Positions 22,547-29,951 of a stretch of 64,000 nt of DNA are shown here, one piece after another (positions within the stretch are counted from its first letter, which is position 1; every line of letters begins with the position of its first letter). The position numbers and the translations under genes are program-made. The DNA is taken from contig NZ_OX424407.1 of assembly GCF_949152215.1 (NCBI RefSeq), positions 686,530 through 750,529 on the forward strand, written 5' to 3'. The notes beneath the pieces are model-generated. The model was given only the letters and a program-made list of their open reading frames with translations. It had not been told where the DNA came from and made no database searches. The DNA is from Lancefieldella sp. Marseille-Q7238 (GTDB lineage Bacteria; Actinomycetota; Coriobacteriia; Coriobacteriales; Atopobiaceae).

Positions 22547-24778
22547 TCAGCTATTCCTTCTCTTCAGGCGAAGAACACTTGTTGTTGTGATAAGCGCAGC
22601 TCCTGCTATACCAAGGCTAAGAGGGATGAGGAGATTTGTGGAGTCAGAGGTCTGAGGGAGATTACCTTTGCCGCTCCTACGAGATCCAGACCTGCGGTTG
22701 TTACCCTGTCCAGGATCAGTGTTGTTCTGGTTCTGACCTTGATTATTCTGATCTTGTCCTGAGTCGGAGTCCTGTCCTGCGGAGTTGCTAACAGTAACAG
22801 TAGCGCTTCTAGAGACGGCTGTGAGACCTGAGGCGTTATTAGTGGCAACACAGTAATAACGAGCAGTGCCTACTTCTGAGGTATTTACAGTAAGAGTTTG
22901 ACCTGTACCAACAGAGACGTCAGCGGCAGGAGCATTGCTGTTCTCAGTACTGGCAGGCTCGGCAACTCTGAACCACTCGTAGGTCAACTGTGAATTGCTG
23001 CCCTCAACGCCATCAGGAAGGTTTGCCTCAGCGCTCAGTGTAACAGCATTGCCCTTCTCGACACTTACATCTTGGGGCTCAGAGGTGAATACGGGAGTGA
23101 CAAAGGCTGTTGCATAGCTGATAGGAGTCCTTGCAAGTCCAGTGGCTACGTCGTAGTCGCTTGGGACAAAGGGTGCTGACTGGTCTCCCTTAAGATAGTT
23201 GCGCATTTCATCCAGCAAAGCCTTAGTTTTTGCGTACACCTCGGCGCTCGCTTGCTTATGGAGCTTGTTTGCGAGTTTTGTGCGTTCAGAGGTCGGTGTC
23301 TGCTGCATAATCTTGTCGACTACTTCCTGCTGGGCAATAAGCTGCTTTTGCAGGGCGTCGAGATATGCGCGGGTATTGGCGGCGAGTTTGTCTCGATTGT
23401 TGTAGGCGAGCGTATTGATGTCCATGAGAACATAATCGAGCGATCCATTGTCGGTGCTGGCATCCATAGCAGCGTCTACGCTATCTACGTTTTCTCTAGG
23501 ACCTGTGTGAGCCTCATTCCAACTATCTACAGGCGGATACAAAGTGGTATCTACCTCGGTGAGAAGGGCTGAGTAGCTAGGAATTGCAATGCTGAATTCG
23601 GAGCGAGAGAGAGCTACCCACTGAATGGTTGCGATGTCAGCACTCATACCCGGGCGAATTTGATACATGTGCGCCTCAACCGTGCGATTATTACCAATGG
23701 CGTAGAGGCCTGCATTGGTATTAGCGTTGAGGGTGCTATCCTGCTCACCCCGGGCGGCGAAGGAGCGCAGCATGGTGAAGAGATCAACCTGGCTGACACC
23801 AGGGGTGAAGAGGAGCTGAGGGTCATTTACAGAGGCCACGCCATGCGCCCCCATGGTGTAGCTTCCCTCGGCGAGCGGAGCGCCAAAGTAGGCACGACCC
23901 TGCGCAAGGCGGGTATATTGTGAAGCGCCAGGCTGAGGATTGCCGTAGGAAGTAGCAACGTCAAGAGTGCCATCTTCAAAATACGTGGCACTACCAGCGT
24001 TTACTGCTGTTTCTTCAAGCCGCTCTGAGTGTAGACAGACATTCTCGTTGTTAAGATCGATTTGGTATTTGAGTTGTCCAATGTTCGGATTGACCGAGGC
24101 CTTGTTGGGATATGCGCCAGTAAGATTGATGGCAATCCACTGATGACCTGAGAGCTGAGTAAAGAGCCAAGTTTCAGTGTTGTCAGCAATGACAATCTGA
24201 TTGCAATCGTAGTTGCCGTACTGATCGATAAGCCTACCAAGGAGCTTAACGCCTTCACGTGCTGTAGGGCTGCAGGCCAGTACGATATCGGCAATAGTGT
24301 ACTCACCGAGGCCACTGGGCGTTGCGCTTCCGTTGCCACAGGGATCAACAGCCTTGACTTGATTGTTATAGTCTGTAGTGAGAGTAGCAGAGACGCTCAC
24401 GCCCATCTCGTTAGTGCCGGCCTCAGAGTAAGCATCATTGCGCCCGTCCCAACCTGAAGGAAGATCGCGCACGTAGGTGTAACGATAGCTTGTTCCAGCA
24501 TATGTCCACCTGAAGTTTGACTCATCCGACGAGAACTCGGGGTTCTGACGAGCCTCTTGGATCCCAAATGCCTTGGGATGACGCTGCGCGTAATCTTCTG
24601 CACGGCCAACGTAGACATCGCCGGTGCGTGTGAGCTGTGGCCCCACATAGATCTGCGTACAGGCAAGCGCATCTTTTGGCAGCGCCAAAAAGAAGGACAG
24701 CGTCACAGCGACCACTGAGCTAATAATCCCCCAAAGGCGCCTCTTGTGTGATGTTTTTATTCCGCTCATAACATACAT
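22547..24778 (-). CDS. Secreted, cell-wall-anchored C69-family peptidase (dipeptidase type) with Ig-like domain
   Basis: C69 peptidases are N-terminal-nucleophile hydrolases acting on dipeptides or related amides. The signal peptide (basic start, then SSVVAVTLSFFLALPKDALA) ends right before CTQIYVG. Cleavage there would expose the Cys expected to be the catalytic nucleophile. The peptidase domain follows to about residue 440, with GTNEMGVSVSATLT and DNTETWLFTQLSG. Then come a helical segment and an Ig-like domain (VTLSAEANLPDG ... ARYYCVATNNASG). A Gln/Asn/Gly-rich spacer follows, then LPQTS, a hydrophobic helix and KRRNS: a sortase substrate. The start ATG 24778 follows GAGAGG; ATG 24766 is possible. 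Base composition and Asn/Gln/Ser-rich wording differ from neighbours, possibly due to surface selection. Confidence 0.87.
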   Translation of the reverse strand: MYVMSGIKTSHKRRLWGIISSVVAVTLSFFLALPKDALACTQIYVGPQLTRTGDVYVGRAEDYAQRHPKAFGIQEARQNPEFSSDESNFRWTYAGTSYRYTYVRDLPSGWDGRNDAYSEAGTNEMGVSVSATLTTDYNNQVKAVDPCGNGSATPSGLGEYTIADIVLACSPTAREGVKLLGRLIDQYGNYDCNQIVIADNTETWLFTQLSGHQWIAINLTGAYPNKASVNPNIGQLKYQIDLNNENVCLHSERLEETAVNAGSATYFEDGTLDVATSYGNPQPGASQYTRLAQGRAYFGAPLAEGSYTMGAHGVASVNDPQLLFTPGVSQVDLFTMLRSFAARGEQDSTLNANTNAGLYAIGNNRTVEAHMYQIRPGMSADIATIQWVALSRSEFSIAIPSYSALLTEVDTTLYPPVDSWNEAHTGPRENVDSVDAAMDASTDNGSLDYVLMDINTLAYNNRDKLAANTRAYLDALQKQLIAQQEVVDKIMQQTPTSERTKLANKLHKQASAEVYAKTKALLDEMRNYLKGDQSAPFVPSDYDVATGLARTPISYATAFVTPVFTSEPQDVSVEKGNAVTLSAEANLPDGVEGSNSQLTYEWFRVAEPASTENSNAPAADVSVGTGQTLTVNTSEVGTARYYCVATNNASGLTAVSRSATVTVSNSAGQDSDSGQDQNNQGQNQNNTDPGQGNNRRSGSRRSGKGNLPQTSDSTNLLIPLSLGIAGAALITTTSVLRLKRRNS

Positions 24779-25193
24779 CAACCTCTCAAAAATGAAACGT
24801 GATTGTATTGCTTTCAGGATTCCCTGATGAATCTGACCATCAGCTTGAATTATATAGACTCGACGATTCCAGATGCATCACAAAAGAGGAGAGTAGGGTG
24901 AACGGAAAGCGAACGGAAATCCACAGTTCCTTAAGCTATGTTCCAGTACCCATTGTTTGCGAAGAGAGCGCTTGTTCGCTACACGAGAGACGCTTGCAAT
25001 GAGAGCAACACTTGCAGTGAGGATGACTGTTTTATACGGTAATACGTCTTTTTAGACCGACACTAACGCTATCTCTTCTCTGCAAACCACAGGTAGCTCT
25101 CCCAACTGTGGTCTTCGTGGTTGTACTATACTACCAGCAGACATGACCTGTGATTATACAAGTGCAATCTCACCGCACTAAGAAGGGATACTC
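24779..25193. other. 415-base intergenic region, no gene seen
   Basis: It separates the divergent C69 peptidase and galE genes and should hold promoters for both. An imperfect inverted repeat ACCACAG ... CTGTGGT lies around 25087-25113. A 67-codon frame at 24799-25002 has no ribosome site or recognisable motif and I leave it out. Confidence 0.5.
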
Positions 25194-26281: not shown

Positions 26282-27406
26282 GTGAACTTTGCCGATTATC
26301 TTGCCTTAGTCAGGCCTCGTATCGAGAAGGACCTCAAAGCTGGACTTCCTTCTGTCACAGGCGATGCCAACGAACCTGAAGCGGTCTCCGCGCACGCAAC
26401 CGATGACTTGAACGCCTACCTCTACGAGCCGTTGCGCCAATTTAGCGCGCAAGGAGGCAAACGCGTACGGCCGGCGCTCGCTCTGCTTGGAGCCGAAGCT
26501 GTCGGAGGCAATCCTCAAGAGGCGTTCCCCATCGCAAGCGCCATCGAAGATTTTCAGTCGGCGGCGCTTATCCATGACGACATCGCTGACGGTTCAAAAT
26601 TACGACGCGGCAATCCCTGTCTTTATCGCACTCTTGGCGTTGGCCTTGCCATTAACGTAGGAGACGCGGCGCTGGTCAACGTTGTATCACGTATTGCCCG
26701 CAGCGATACGTATAACAACGATGTCAAAATCCGCCTTATCGATGCCCTTCTTTTGATGCAGGAGCATACTCTGGAAGGCCAGGCGCTCGATCTCGGCTGG
26801 ACCCGAGAAAATCGATGGGACATCACATCCGATGACTATCTTTTTATGGCGACGTCAAAAACGGCCTACTATTCCGCCGCTTGCCCGCTGGTAGCCGGCG
26901 CCATTGTAGGTGGTGGCAGCCAAAGGCAGCAGTCGGCGCTCAGATCCTTCGGCATGAAAGCCGGGCTCGCCTTCCAGCTTCAAGACGATCTCTTGAACCT
27001 CGTCGGCGATGGCACAGCGCAAGGCAAGGACTTCCGCTCCGACATCACCGAAGGCAAACGTACGCTTTTAGTGGTCCGGGCTTTAGAGGCGCTGCTCGCC
27101 TCCACGCAAGAGGGCGAGACGCAAACGGCTTCTGAGCAAAGCGACATCCACGTCACCAACGCAGCTCTTTCCGCTGATGTTCGAGGCGAGCTCATTTCTC
27201 TTTTGTCGTCAAAGACAAATGACCCTATACTGTTAGAGCGCGCCGTTGCGCTCATCGAGTCCTCCGGCGCTCTTGACTTCGTCCGCTTGCGGGCCCAAAG
27301 CCTTATAGCTGAGGCCAAGGAACATCTCAATGGGGCAGAGTTCGACGCTGAAGCACGTGACACGCTGCTGTCGATGGCTGACTTTTTTGTGGATCGGAAG
27401 AGGTAA
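26282..27406 (+). CDS. Polyprenyl (geranylgeranyl/farnesyl-type) diphosphate synthase
   Basis: Condenses isopentenyl diphosphate onto an allylic diphosphate to make isoprenoid chains. I use GTG 26282 after AAGGAGCC; an ATG-initiated frame from 26165 would lie inside galE. The 374 residues show GGKRVRPALALLGAEAVGG, the first aspartate-rich motif in ALIHDDIADGSKLRRG (DDxxD-like), and the second in FQLQDDLLNLVGD. The product chain length cannot be read safely; residues before the first motif (EDFQSAAL) lack the two bulky aromatics of strict FPP synthases, which favours a longer product. An internal Gln/Ser/Thr-rich insertion occurs near residue 280. The next gene starts 9 bases after the stop. 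Confidence 0.88.
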   Translation: MNFADYLALVRPRIEKDLKAGLPSVTGDANEPEAVSAHATDDLNAYLYEPLRQFSAQGGKRVRPALALLGAEAVGGNPQEAFPIASAIEDFQSAALIHDDIADGSKLRRGNPCLYRTLGVGLAINVGDAALVNVVSRIARSDTYNNDVKIRLIDALLLMQEHTLEGQALDLGWTRENRWDITSDDYLFMATSKTAYYSAACPLVAGAIVGGGSQRQQSALRSFGMKAGLAFQLQDDLLNLVGDGTAQGKDFRSDITEGKRTLLVVRALEALLASTQEGETQTASEQSDIHVTNAALSADVRGELISLLSSKTNDPILLERAVALIESSGALDFVRLRAQSLIAEAKEHLNGAEFDAEARDTLLSMADFFVDRKR

Positions 27407-27415
27407 CAAGAAATT

Positions 27416-28345
27416 ATGGACCCTATCACGCCCGGCAGCACCGGCGCTGCCGTTGAGGATATTCAGGAACGTCTGGTAAAGCTCGATTACGATATTGATG
27501 CTACAGAGCGCGAGAAGCACTCCTTTGGCCGCACGACCGCCAACGCCGTTGCGCGCTTTCGGCTTGACCATGATCTTTCGCTCGGCGAAGACGTTGACAT
27601 CGCCACATGGGTGTTGCTCGTTGACGAAAGCTACGAGCTGGGAGACCGCACACTGTACCTGCGTCTGCCAAACTTCCATGGACACGATGTACGTCAGCTT
27701 CAGGAGCGCCTGAATATCTTGGGATTTTCCTGTGGAGAGCCGGACGGCCAGTACGGCGTTCACACCGAGGCCGCGGTAAAGCTCTTCCAGGAAAGTGTCG
27801 GTGAGCTTGCTGACGGCATGGCGTTTCAAGATACGCTCGACGCCATTGAGCGTCTGCGTCACGTATGGTCCGGCAAGCAGGCAAAAGGGCCCCATCCCCA
27901 GGGCGGCATGGGATTTGCACGTGCGGCGAACGTGTTGGAAACCATCGCGCTTGCCATCACGGGCGAAGATCCCATTGCCCGAAATGTCGCCGGACGCGTG
28001 GCCAATCTTGCCAGAGCGACTTCCGAGGCGTCCGGCATCGAGCTTGTTGACTCCATCGATACTCCCACAAGCTGCACGGCCATTCTCGCCATCACGTCAA
28101 GCCCAGCGCCAGTTAAGCCCGCCCGCGGCAAGACGGTTATCGGCAGCGTCACCATGGACGAAAACGAGACGCTTCCTATGCGCCTGCGGACAGCCTTTCA
28201 GTCGGCGGAGGGTTCGCCTCAGATCGTGCGCATCTCGCTGCCCGAAAGAAGCTCGGTAGAAGGTTCGTTTACCCTCGCGGACGCACAAACTCTTGCAGTT
28301 CTTGTATTAGATGCAATTTGCGGCGCATTTATCGGCCGTAGCTGA
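27416..28345 (+). CDS. Protein with two peptidoglycan-binding domains, no export signal
   Basis: The 309-residue protein starts at ATG 27416, 9 bases after the polyprenyl synthase. Two PG_binding_1-type repeats can be seen: residues 4-60 (GSTGAAVEDIQERLVKLDYD ... AVARFRLDHDL) and 78-140 (HDVRQLQERLNILGF ... EAAVKLFQESVG). The C-terminal half is not recognisable. There is no signal peptide or membrane helix, so it should be cytoplasmic. That domain layout recalls actinobacterial CwlM, a cytoplasmic two-PG-domain amidase homologue that controls MurA. Here the amidase motifs (HGG, zinc ligands) are absent or unrecognisable. glmU, which makes the UDP-GlcNAc that MurA uses, lies just downstream past a tRNA. 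Function is unknown; a regulatory role is inference. Confidence 0.7.
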   Translation: MDPITPGSTGAAVEDIQERLVKLDYDIDATEREKHSFGRTTANAVARFRLDHDLSLGEDVDIATWVLLVDESYELGDRTLYLRLPNFHGHDVRQLQERLNILGFSCGEPDGQYGVHTEAAVKLFQESVGELADGMAFQDTLDAIERLRHVWSGKQAKGPHPQGGMGFARAANVLETIALAITGEDPIARNVAGRVANLARATSEASGIELVDSIDTPTSCTAILAITSSPAPVKPARGKTVIGSVTMDENETLPMRLRTAFQSAEGSPQIVRISLPERSSVEGSFTLADAQTLAVLVLDAICGAFIGRS

Positions 28346-28405: not shown

Positions 28406-28480
28406 TGGGGTATCGTCCAATGGTTAGGACACGGGTTTTTGGTGCCTGTAATGTGGGTTCGAATCCTACTACCCCAGCCA
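28406..28480 (+). tRNA. tRNA-Gln (anticodon UUG)
   Basis: Cloverleaf with acceptor TGGGGTA/TACCCCA, D arm with AATGGTTAGGA, and anticodon stem CGGGT/GCCTG around loop TTTTGGT (anticodon TTG). The T arm has GTTCGAATC, and the 3' CCA at 28478-28480 is encoded. Sequence closely resembles other bacterial tRNA-Gln in the acceptor and anticodon regions. Confidence 0.95.
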
Positions 28481-28562: not shown

Positions 28563-29951
28563 ATGCCACTTACTGCGATTGTCCTCGCTGCCGGCGAGGG
28601 AACGCGCATGAAGTCCCGCCACCCCAAGGTAGTGCACAATCTACTTGATAAACCCATCGTTTGGTGGACCGTCCGCGCCGCGCAGGCTGCCGGTGTCGAA
28701 CGCACCATCGTTGTCGTGGGCAATCATGCAGACGAAATCAAGGCTGCGCTATCCGATTTCGATGGAATCGAATATGTCGAGCAGACCGATCGGCTTGGCA
28801 CCGGTCATGCGGTTCGCGTAGTCCGCGATGCTCTTGGTGGCTTTAATGGACCTGTCGTTGTCATTAACGGCGACGCTCCCCTCATGCGCTCAGAAACAAT
28901 CAAAGCTCTTGTTGATGAAACGCGCGCGCACCACAACGCCTGTACCTTATTGACCATGACGCCTCCGGATCCCACGGGATATGGGCGCGTTATTTTTTCA
29001 GACGGGCACGTCGCCGGCATTGTTGAGCATAAGGACGCCACCCCTGAACAGCGCAAACACGAACGCGAATGTAACGTAGGCGTGTATTGCTTCTGCGGCG
29101 GTCGTCTTACCGCAAACATTGACCTTATCGCCAACGACAATACGCAAGGCGAATACTACCTCACCGATATGGTTGGCATATACGTCGGCCAAGGAGAGCC
29201 GATGTCCGCCGTTCATGTCGATGACTACCACGAGGCGCTGGGTGTCAATTCCCGCTCACAGCTCGCCGACGCCACTCGCATCATGCAGGAGCGCATCAAC
29301 GAGCACCTGATGGCGGAAGGCGTTACAATGCTCGATCCGACCACGGTCTGGGTCGGCGCGGACGTCACCGTGGGCCAGGATACTGAGATTCTTCCGATGA
29401 CCATGCTCTACGGCGCAACGCATATCGGGTCTGACTGCGTTATCGGACCGAATACGCGCCTGACCGACACGACTATCGGTGACGGCTGCGTTGTCGATGA
29501 AACCGTCGCTCTTTCCGCGGTTGTCGAGGACGGCGCCACCTGTGGCCCCCGCGCCTATCTGCGGCCTGGCGCTCACCTCATGCCGCACGCCAAGGCCGGA
29601 ACGCACGTTGAGATTAAAAATTCAACCATCGGCGCAGGTTCCAAAGTTCCGCATCTTTCCTATATCGGCGATACCACTATGGGCGAAGGCGTCAATGTTG
29701 GTGCTGGATCGATTACCTGCAACTATGACGGCTACCACAAGTTCCCTACCACCATCGGAGATCATGTGTTTATCGGCTCGGACACCATGATGGTAGCCCC
29801 GGTCACTATCGGTGATGGCGCGCTGGTGGGCGCCAGCTCCTGCATCACACAGGATGTTCCCGCGGACGCTCTTGCTCTTGAGCGCAGCGAACAGCGTATT
29901 GTTGAAGGATATGCCGCTACAAGGCGCGCAAAGCTTGAGAAAGAGGATTAA
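28563..29951 (+). CDS. glmU: Bifunctional GlcNAc-1-phosphate uridyltransferase / glucosamine-1-phosphate acetyltransferase
   Basis: Makes UDP-GlcNAc for peptidoglycan in the cytoplasm. ATG 28563 is chosen after GGAGG at 8 bases. The N-terminal pyrophosphorylase domain has the nucleotide loop LAAGEGTRMKSRHPKVVH (residues 8-25), GLGTGHAV-like RLGTGHAVRV and NGDAPL. The C-terminal left-handed beta-helix (from about 245) shows hexapeptide repeats and the acetyltransferase region GSITCNYDGYHKFPT with TIGDHVFIGSD. The 462-residue length is normal. The stop codon is directly followed by the ATG of prs, so the pair is co-transcribed, a common bacterial arrangement. Confidence 0.97.
   Translation: MPLTAIVLAAGEGTRMKSRHPKVVHNLLDKPIVWWTVRAAQAAGVERTIVVVGNHADEIKAALSDFDGIEYVEQTDRLGTGHAVRVVRDALGGFNGPVVVINGDAPLMRSETIKALVDETRAHHNACTLLTMTPPDPTGYGRVIFSDGHVAGIVEHKDATPEQRKHERECNVGVYCFCGGRLTANIDLIANDNTQGEYYLTDMVGIYVGQGEPMSAVHVDDYHEALGVNSRSQLADATRIMQERINEHLMAEGVTMLDPTTVWVGADVTVGQDTEILPMTMLYGATHIGSDCVIGPNTRLTDTTIGDGCVVDETVALSAVVEDGATCGPRAYLRPGAHLMPHAKAGTHVEIKNSTIGAGSKVPHLSYIGDTTMGEGVNVGAGSITCNYDGYHKFPTTIGDHVFIGSDTMMVAPVTIGDGALVGASSCITQDVPADALALERSEQRIVEGYAATRRAKLEKED

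Follow-up and report, generated by a model that had tools for sequence, protein, structure and literature searches.

In mycobacteria, CwlM is an essential protein (PMC4946905, PMC6180346). Its binding partner in M. tuberculosis depends on phosphorylation: FhaA for the phosphorylated form, and a MurJ linker of about 140 residues for the unphosphorylated one (PMC6180346). Phosphorylated CwlM moreover stimulates MurA (PMC4946905); in vitro this stimulation proceeds via a REEEL helix, a contact described for mycobacteria only, and a 2025 study reported a modest in vivo effect of CwlM on MurA (PMC12723410). A PTG/TGT tail motif is present in most CwlM clades, not in all (PMC4946905). A survey of CwlM homologues required PG-binding and amidase domains together, and it reported that signals were lacking in every homologue found and that some had degenerate sites (PMC4946905).

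Results

The window, i.e., the whole stretch of 64,000 nucleotides from Lancefieldella sp. Marseille-Q7238 that we analyzed, contains an open reading frame of 309 amino acids plus stop on the forward strand (27416..28345). From the reading frame, Pfam, hydropathy and reciprocal matches we assigned it as the gene of a CwlM-type protein without signal peptide. Pfam found two PG_binding_1 domains (E 1.8e-19 for the whole protein). In a genome-wide search the two copies scored 50.8 and 25.1 bits against a curated cut-off of 23, confirming the two PG-binding domains of the original prediction, and this protein was the sole source of PG_binding_1 matches, two in number, in the 1.6-Mb genome. The first domain comprises about residues 1–75 (27416..27640, forward strand; the Pfam match is shorter). 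Its model, with pLDDT of 82–98 for the blocks covering residues 1–80, superimposes on the N-terminal domain of SleB (6tci, Z 13.8, 70 residues). The second comprises about residues 88–153 (27677..27874, forward; Pfam 89–144) and matches 1lbu (Z 10.5, model residues 74–153). A conserved inter-domain junction, residues 75–94 (27638..27697, forward), is common to CwlM-type proteins by alignments and motif. Residues 166–309 (27911..28342, forward) are probably a decayed Amidase_3 domain that has lost its catalytic residues, as judged by alignment and model. The protein is 100% identical to that of Atopobium sp. oral taxon 199 F0494 and 88% identical to that of Lancefieldella rimae (NCBI: Atopobiaceae, Coriobacteriales, Coriobacteriia); from this placement we read the class sampled in our searches as Coriobacteriia.

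The upstream gene ends with a stop codon that is in frame with the ATG and four codons 5' of it, and hence no upstream start could add a signal peptide; the original prediction had named such a start as one possible refutation. We also searched the first 40 residues for an 11-residue stretch with a mean Kyte-Doolittle value of at least 1.8, a test by hydropathy only and not by a dedicated signal-peptide program. None of the 121 class rows, which include three short ones (L021, L251, L252), had such a stretch (maximum 1.69), compared with 3.2 and 2.5 for controls taken to be exported. Among CwlM-type rows from elsewhere in the phylum, 32 of 34 likewise had none, and the other two reached at most 1.89.

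The 309-residue query matched in 55 of 60 relatives, including all 46 good genomes. A family profile (A1), built from an alignment of 20 family members, matched in 291 of the 296 Coriobacteriia genomes sampled (267 of 268 good ones), almost always with a single match per genome. It also matched in 275 of 296 genomes sampled from the phylum, a figure that is not a CwlM count, as the weakest matches are other PG-binding proteins. Outside the class, the A1 matches listed end at model position 135–232 of 304 and lie mostly in frames of 320–450 amino acids. Two variants of the gene were seen on the way. One genome (G027, C1:1663272-1663826) carries a second, partial copy beside the full one, 70% identical to residues 1–185 (L021). 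In G121 (family f2, genus g61) a CwlM-type protein lacks the first PG-binding domain, its match starting at model position 72 (L249), and other g61 genomes gave similarly low scores with the profile.

Kinship with CwlM was supported by reciprocal searches. In all eight genomes of family f52, which we ourselves read from its sequences as mycobacterial-type, the best match of profile A1 was a CwlM-type protein (E 9e-19 to 2e-27), with the PG-binding tandem followed by an amidase-type part as read from sequence in 8/8. One of these, L199, the sole f52 protein scanned for domains, has two PG_binding_1 domains and Amidase_3, and it carries the REEEL and PTGTFT stretches known from CwlM (PMC12723410, PMC4946905); in the f52 rows, REEEL occurred in three of eight and a PTGT tail in all eight. 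With L199 as query, the 309-residue protein came first in the genome of the window (E 6e-13, 36% identity over L199 residues 13–165), followed by an amidase in a 956-aa frame (2.6e-4). BLASTP gave 37% identity between the two over 119 residues.

The junction can be written roughly as G-D-R-x-L-Y ... G-x-D-V-x-x-L-Q. This motif occurred in 118 of 121 class rows, in 33 of 34 CwlM-type rows elsewhere in the phylum and in 1 of 18 other open reading frames used as controls; it was written after the alignments had been seen and is descriptive more than a test. In L203 (G458), the sole control that matched, a long hydrophobic stretch can be seen by eye immediately ahead of the PG-binding part. A tandem tree placed the 21 class rows included in it on one side of a branch (100/99). 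The Lancefieldella protein has two PG_binding_1 domains, the junction and the missing signal peptide in common with CwlM (Rv3915/MSMEG_6935). It also has tandem and junction in common with CwlM-type proteins of other Actinomycetota (L178, L179, L181–L183, L187), which keep the H-E-H-E residues that the Lancefieldella protein has lost altogether. We noted that these proteins and others combine a full amidase catalytic set with the absence of a signal-like stretch.

The tandem is the conserved part of the protein, and the remainder is tolerated or lost. Across 86 class sequences, 19 residues were listed as invariant; 18 fall within the tandem, and the stretch from residue 76 to 104 holds 12. In the 136 pairs formed by 17 sequences, mean identity was 55% for the tandem versus 26% for the C-terminal half.

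We then compared the partners of CwlM. Besides FhaA (FhaA_N plus FHA) and MurJ, the genome of the window encodes two kinases, one of them PknB-like with four PASTA domains, as well as a PP2C phosphatase and a short FHA protein, so that PknB, FhaA and MurJ accompany the protein in the same genome as they do CwlM. Two EPSP-synthase-type genes were found, in which MurA was not told apart from AroA; one of their products presumably is MurA. The kinase, PP2C and FHA gene cluster also holds an open reading frame of 953 amino acids with FtsW/RodA and PBP transpeptidase domains (L274:8871-11729, at about C1 1072870-1075728 of the genome of the window).

The contact sites known from mycobacteria differ. 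The Lancefieldella protein has neither a REEEL helix nor the PTG/TGT tail, which in mycobacteria is phosphorylated and serves FhaA binding and MurA activation. In the last 60 residues, a PTG/TGT motif was found in 1 of 121 class rows (L024, inside the domain and with no tail) and in 10 of the 34 CwlM-type rows elsewhere, being missing in 24. The REEEL helix was absent from all 121 class rows and present in three of these 34, all from f52; the stretch aligned to it reads GFARAANVLE in the Lancefieldella protein. We did not adopt an equivalence between the C-terminal GTFT/GSFT of Atopobiaceae and Coriobacteriaceae and the mycobacterial PTGTFT tail: the class members L155, L159, L164, L228 and L230 lack the stretch, and the strand-helix order of this region would fit the last strand and helix of an amidase. 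The Pfam match of Lancefieldella MurJ spans residues 75–511 of 566; with only about 55 residues beyond it, the protein is too short for a CwlM-binding linker of the M. tuberculosis type. Without the tail, the REEEL helix and the linker in MurJ, the known mycobacterial mechanism is not transferable as it stands. The documented contacts (tail with FhaA, REEEL with MurA, MurJ linker) thus look absent or altered, and the protein may reach the same partners via other surfaces or may serve another target.

A CwlM descendant recruited to another intracellular job, such as muropeptide sensing or a division scaffold, with no control of MurA, FhaA or MurJ, would agree with the alteration of all three contacts and with the clustering of invariant residues in the tandem, a possible muropeptide holder. 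We regard this as rather unlikely, since PknB with its PASTA domains, FhaA and MurJ are all present and 134 of 149 class genomes, among them 119 of the 124 good ones, have FhaA_N. The likeness to CwlM drawn by the original prediction stands as kinship, by reciprocal best matches, junction, order of parts and a probable amidase-like fold, but the mycobacterial contacts are not conserved.

The C-terminal half had been described as unrecognized and as lacking amidase motifs. Neither Pfam (best match only E 0.32) nor NCBIfam (zero matches) gave a match of note, and Amidase_3 (PF01520) was not listed for the protein at E up to 10, a range in which HMMER filters drop most matches above E ~0.1. Position and model, however, make a decayed Amidase_3 domain the most likely identity of this half. 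Aligned jointly with the amidase of CwlM it was collinear, but the loop of the first histidine, the segment ahead of the last strand and the tail were missing. A profile-profile alignment was collinear over 148 of 151 columns. As in CwlM, the C-terminal part sits at the place of Amidase_3 and the zinc-site residues are lost; the amidase half here is about 60 residues or more shorter and is unrecognizable by sequence. An attempt to prove amidase kinship from sequence alone failed, with insignificant hhalign values (P 0.03 and 0.023, probability 0.8 and 2.1%). The profile-profile score was 19.6, compared with a maximum of 16.5 in 150 column-shuffled controls, 11.4 for the reversed target and 9.6 for the reversed query.

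Structure prediction, which had been proposed as a check, gave support short of proof: the eight best rows for the C-terminal half were Amidase_3, but unrelated folds followed closely. AlphaFold2 gave a pLDDT of 89.3 for the whole protein, with a pTM of 0.60 that leaves the domain arrangement uncertain, and a pLDDT of 89.0 with a pTM of 0.83 for the C-terminal half. The eight best PDB entries for this half (VIA-align; Z 7.2–8.2, 106–111 residues, rmsd 3.4–3.7) represent six different proteins, Rv3717 occurring three times, among 1000 re-aligned chains. Lumazine synthase and archaeal riboflavin synthase folds came next at Z 7.1, a small margin; the lower amidase rows lie within tie range of this value, and by the tool's own note a Z of about 8 may mean a common arrangement only. 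With the whole model, AmiB reached Z 8.0 and other amidases 7.1–7.9, a range that also took in RpiB (7.4) and lumazine synthase (7.1). The top Foldseek match of the C-terminal half was again Rv3717 (E 0.012, prob 0.95, TM-score only 0.42); at E ≤0.001 Foldseek found no PDB match for the whole protein or the C-terminal half. The models support an amidase-like fold, one that the C-terminal half probably has in common with the exported Amidase_3 enzymes Rv3717, CwlV and AmiC2 (Z ~8), from which the Lancefieldella protein differs by lacking zinc ligands, export and active-site loops.

The insignificant sequence-profile match and the near scores of lumazine and archaeal riboflavin synthase folds and of RpiB would also suit an unrelated α/β domain fused to a CwlM-type tandem, which would be compatible with a regulatory role. 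We consider such a fusion improbable in view of the same architectural place, the near-complete collinearity, the eight leading Amidase_3 rows and the precedent of other lineages, in which catalytic residues have been lost while the amidase is still recognizable.

Loss of the catalytic residues was complete in the class. The H-E-H-E set (zinc ligands plus catalytic Glu) was found in none of the 121 class rows, and none had a histidine at either His position; the missing amidase motifs of the original prediction are thereby borne out. In our chosen set of CwlM-type rows elsewhere in the phylum, 15 of 34 kept H-E-H-E. Distributing the intact and the lost state over the tandem tree takes at least six changes over 55 rows, or eight losses if regain is disallowed, with several forks open. 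Two genera of family f19 have lost the amidase domain outright, a further difference from CwlM. Their proteins (L251 and L252, with wider loci L260 and L261) are 167–168 residues long and stop after the tandem, and the next genes start 153 and 36 bp further on. L251 and L252 are sister rows on the tree (99/95), hence a single loss of the C-terminal domain suffices; a third f19 genus (L241) keeps it. Loss of FhaA did not track loss of the domain: G117 lacks FhaA_N, G126 has it, and the domain-keeping G157 lacks it.

Directly upstream of the CwlM-type gene lies a polyprenyl synthase gene (26282..27406, forward; PF00348, 1.5e-58). Its stop at 27406 is separated from the CwlM-type ATG by 9 nt on the same strand, an arrangement from which co-transcription appears likely. 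We counted neighbors in 79 named loci, i.e., the best matches among those listed, from Atopobiaceae and Coriobacteriaceae by their titles. Polyprenyl synthase was directly upstream in 52 of 77 loci with enough flank. Downstream, a tRNA-Gln gene (28406..28480, forward) is followed by glmU (28563..29951, forward). The proximity to glmU that had been pointed out is real in the window, but the weight given to it was not borne out, as glmU was downstream in only 11 of 74 loci; we dropped a role tied to glmU as not general.

In other orders of the class, a PcsB-like NlpC/P60 hydrolase gene was directly downstream in eight of eight loci (L254–L261), and likewise in L262 from the same order; none of this type was found downstream in L263 or in the window. 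The NlpC/P60 profile was seeded from L258, L259, L260, L262, L270 and L271, where it matches by construction; independent evidence for these six came from Pfam scans. Such a gene was also directly downstream in three loci of other classes (L265, L270, L271), the one in L265 being an M23 gene instead. The adjoining NlpC/P60 gene could hint at a role tied to extracellular hydrolysis. Elsewhere in the window, 22547-24781 (reverse strand) encodes a peptidase C69 that contains an Ig-like domain; a sortase-like LPQTS stretch is visible by eye close to its C-terminus.

PG_binding_1 proteins are usually extracellular, and we counted this together with the NlpC/P60 neighbors of L254–L262 in favor of a protein that is exported without a signal and sits in the wall, bound to peptidoglycan. 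We set this aside as highly improbable, because the signal is absent, in the window there is no room upstream for one, and CwlM of M. smegmatis is cytoplasmic by cysteine accessibility (PMC4946905).

Discussion

We propose, with moderate confidence, that the 309-residue protein takes the place of CwlM in the Coriobacteriia. It would be located in the cytoplasm, apparently has no catalytic activity, and would regulate peptidoglycan synthesis at the level of precursor synthesis or export. It would descend from a PG-binding/amidase architecture in which the working part is now the tandem, and chiefly the junction. The tandem probably binds a pathway protein or a precursor, in the cytoplasm or at the inner leaflet, and this binding would adjust the peptidoglycan supply. 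The amidase half would be a vestige that at most stabilizes or presents the tandem.

A wider proposal, for which we have distinctly less confidence, is that across the Actinomycetota the conserved activity of CwlM resides in the tandem, acting as a cytoplasmic precursor sensor or carrier independent of phosphorylation, with the amidase as a repeatedly decayed relic and the forms of 167–168 residues as a natural minimal CwlM. Repeated decay of the amidase is partly known, because some degenerate sites have been reported (PMC4946905). Our search for literature on CwlM with Coriobacteri, Eggerthella or Collinsella found none, with preprints outside its scope and few subscription papers covered. 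Relative to the literature found, a class-wide Coriobacteriia form of CwlM with an unrecognizable amidase half appears to be new; we did not find it in print. It seems to have gone unrecognized because its decayed amidase half no longer resembles an amidase, and a survey requiring an amidase domain would be expected to miss the Coriobacteriia forms.

These results add gut and oral bacteria, e.g., Collinsella, Olsenella and Lancefieldella, to those with a CwlM-type protein. A class-wide form lacking an amidase signature, tail and MurA helix, together with a natural truncation to the tandem, suggests which part may hold the ancestral function. The tandem-only and reduced forms are small proteins on which this ancestral function of CwlM could be tested.
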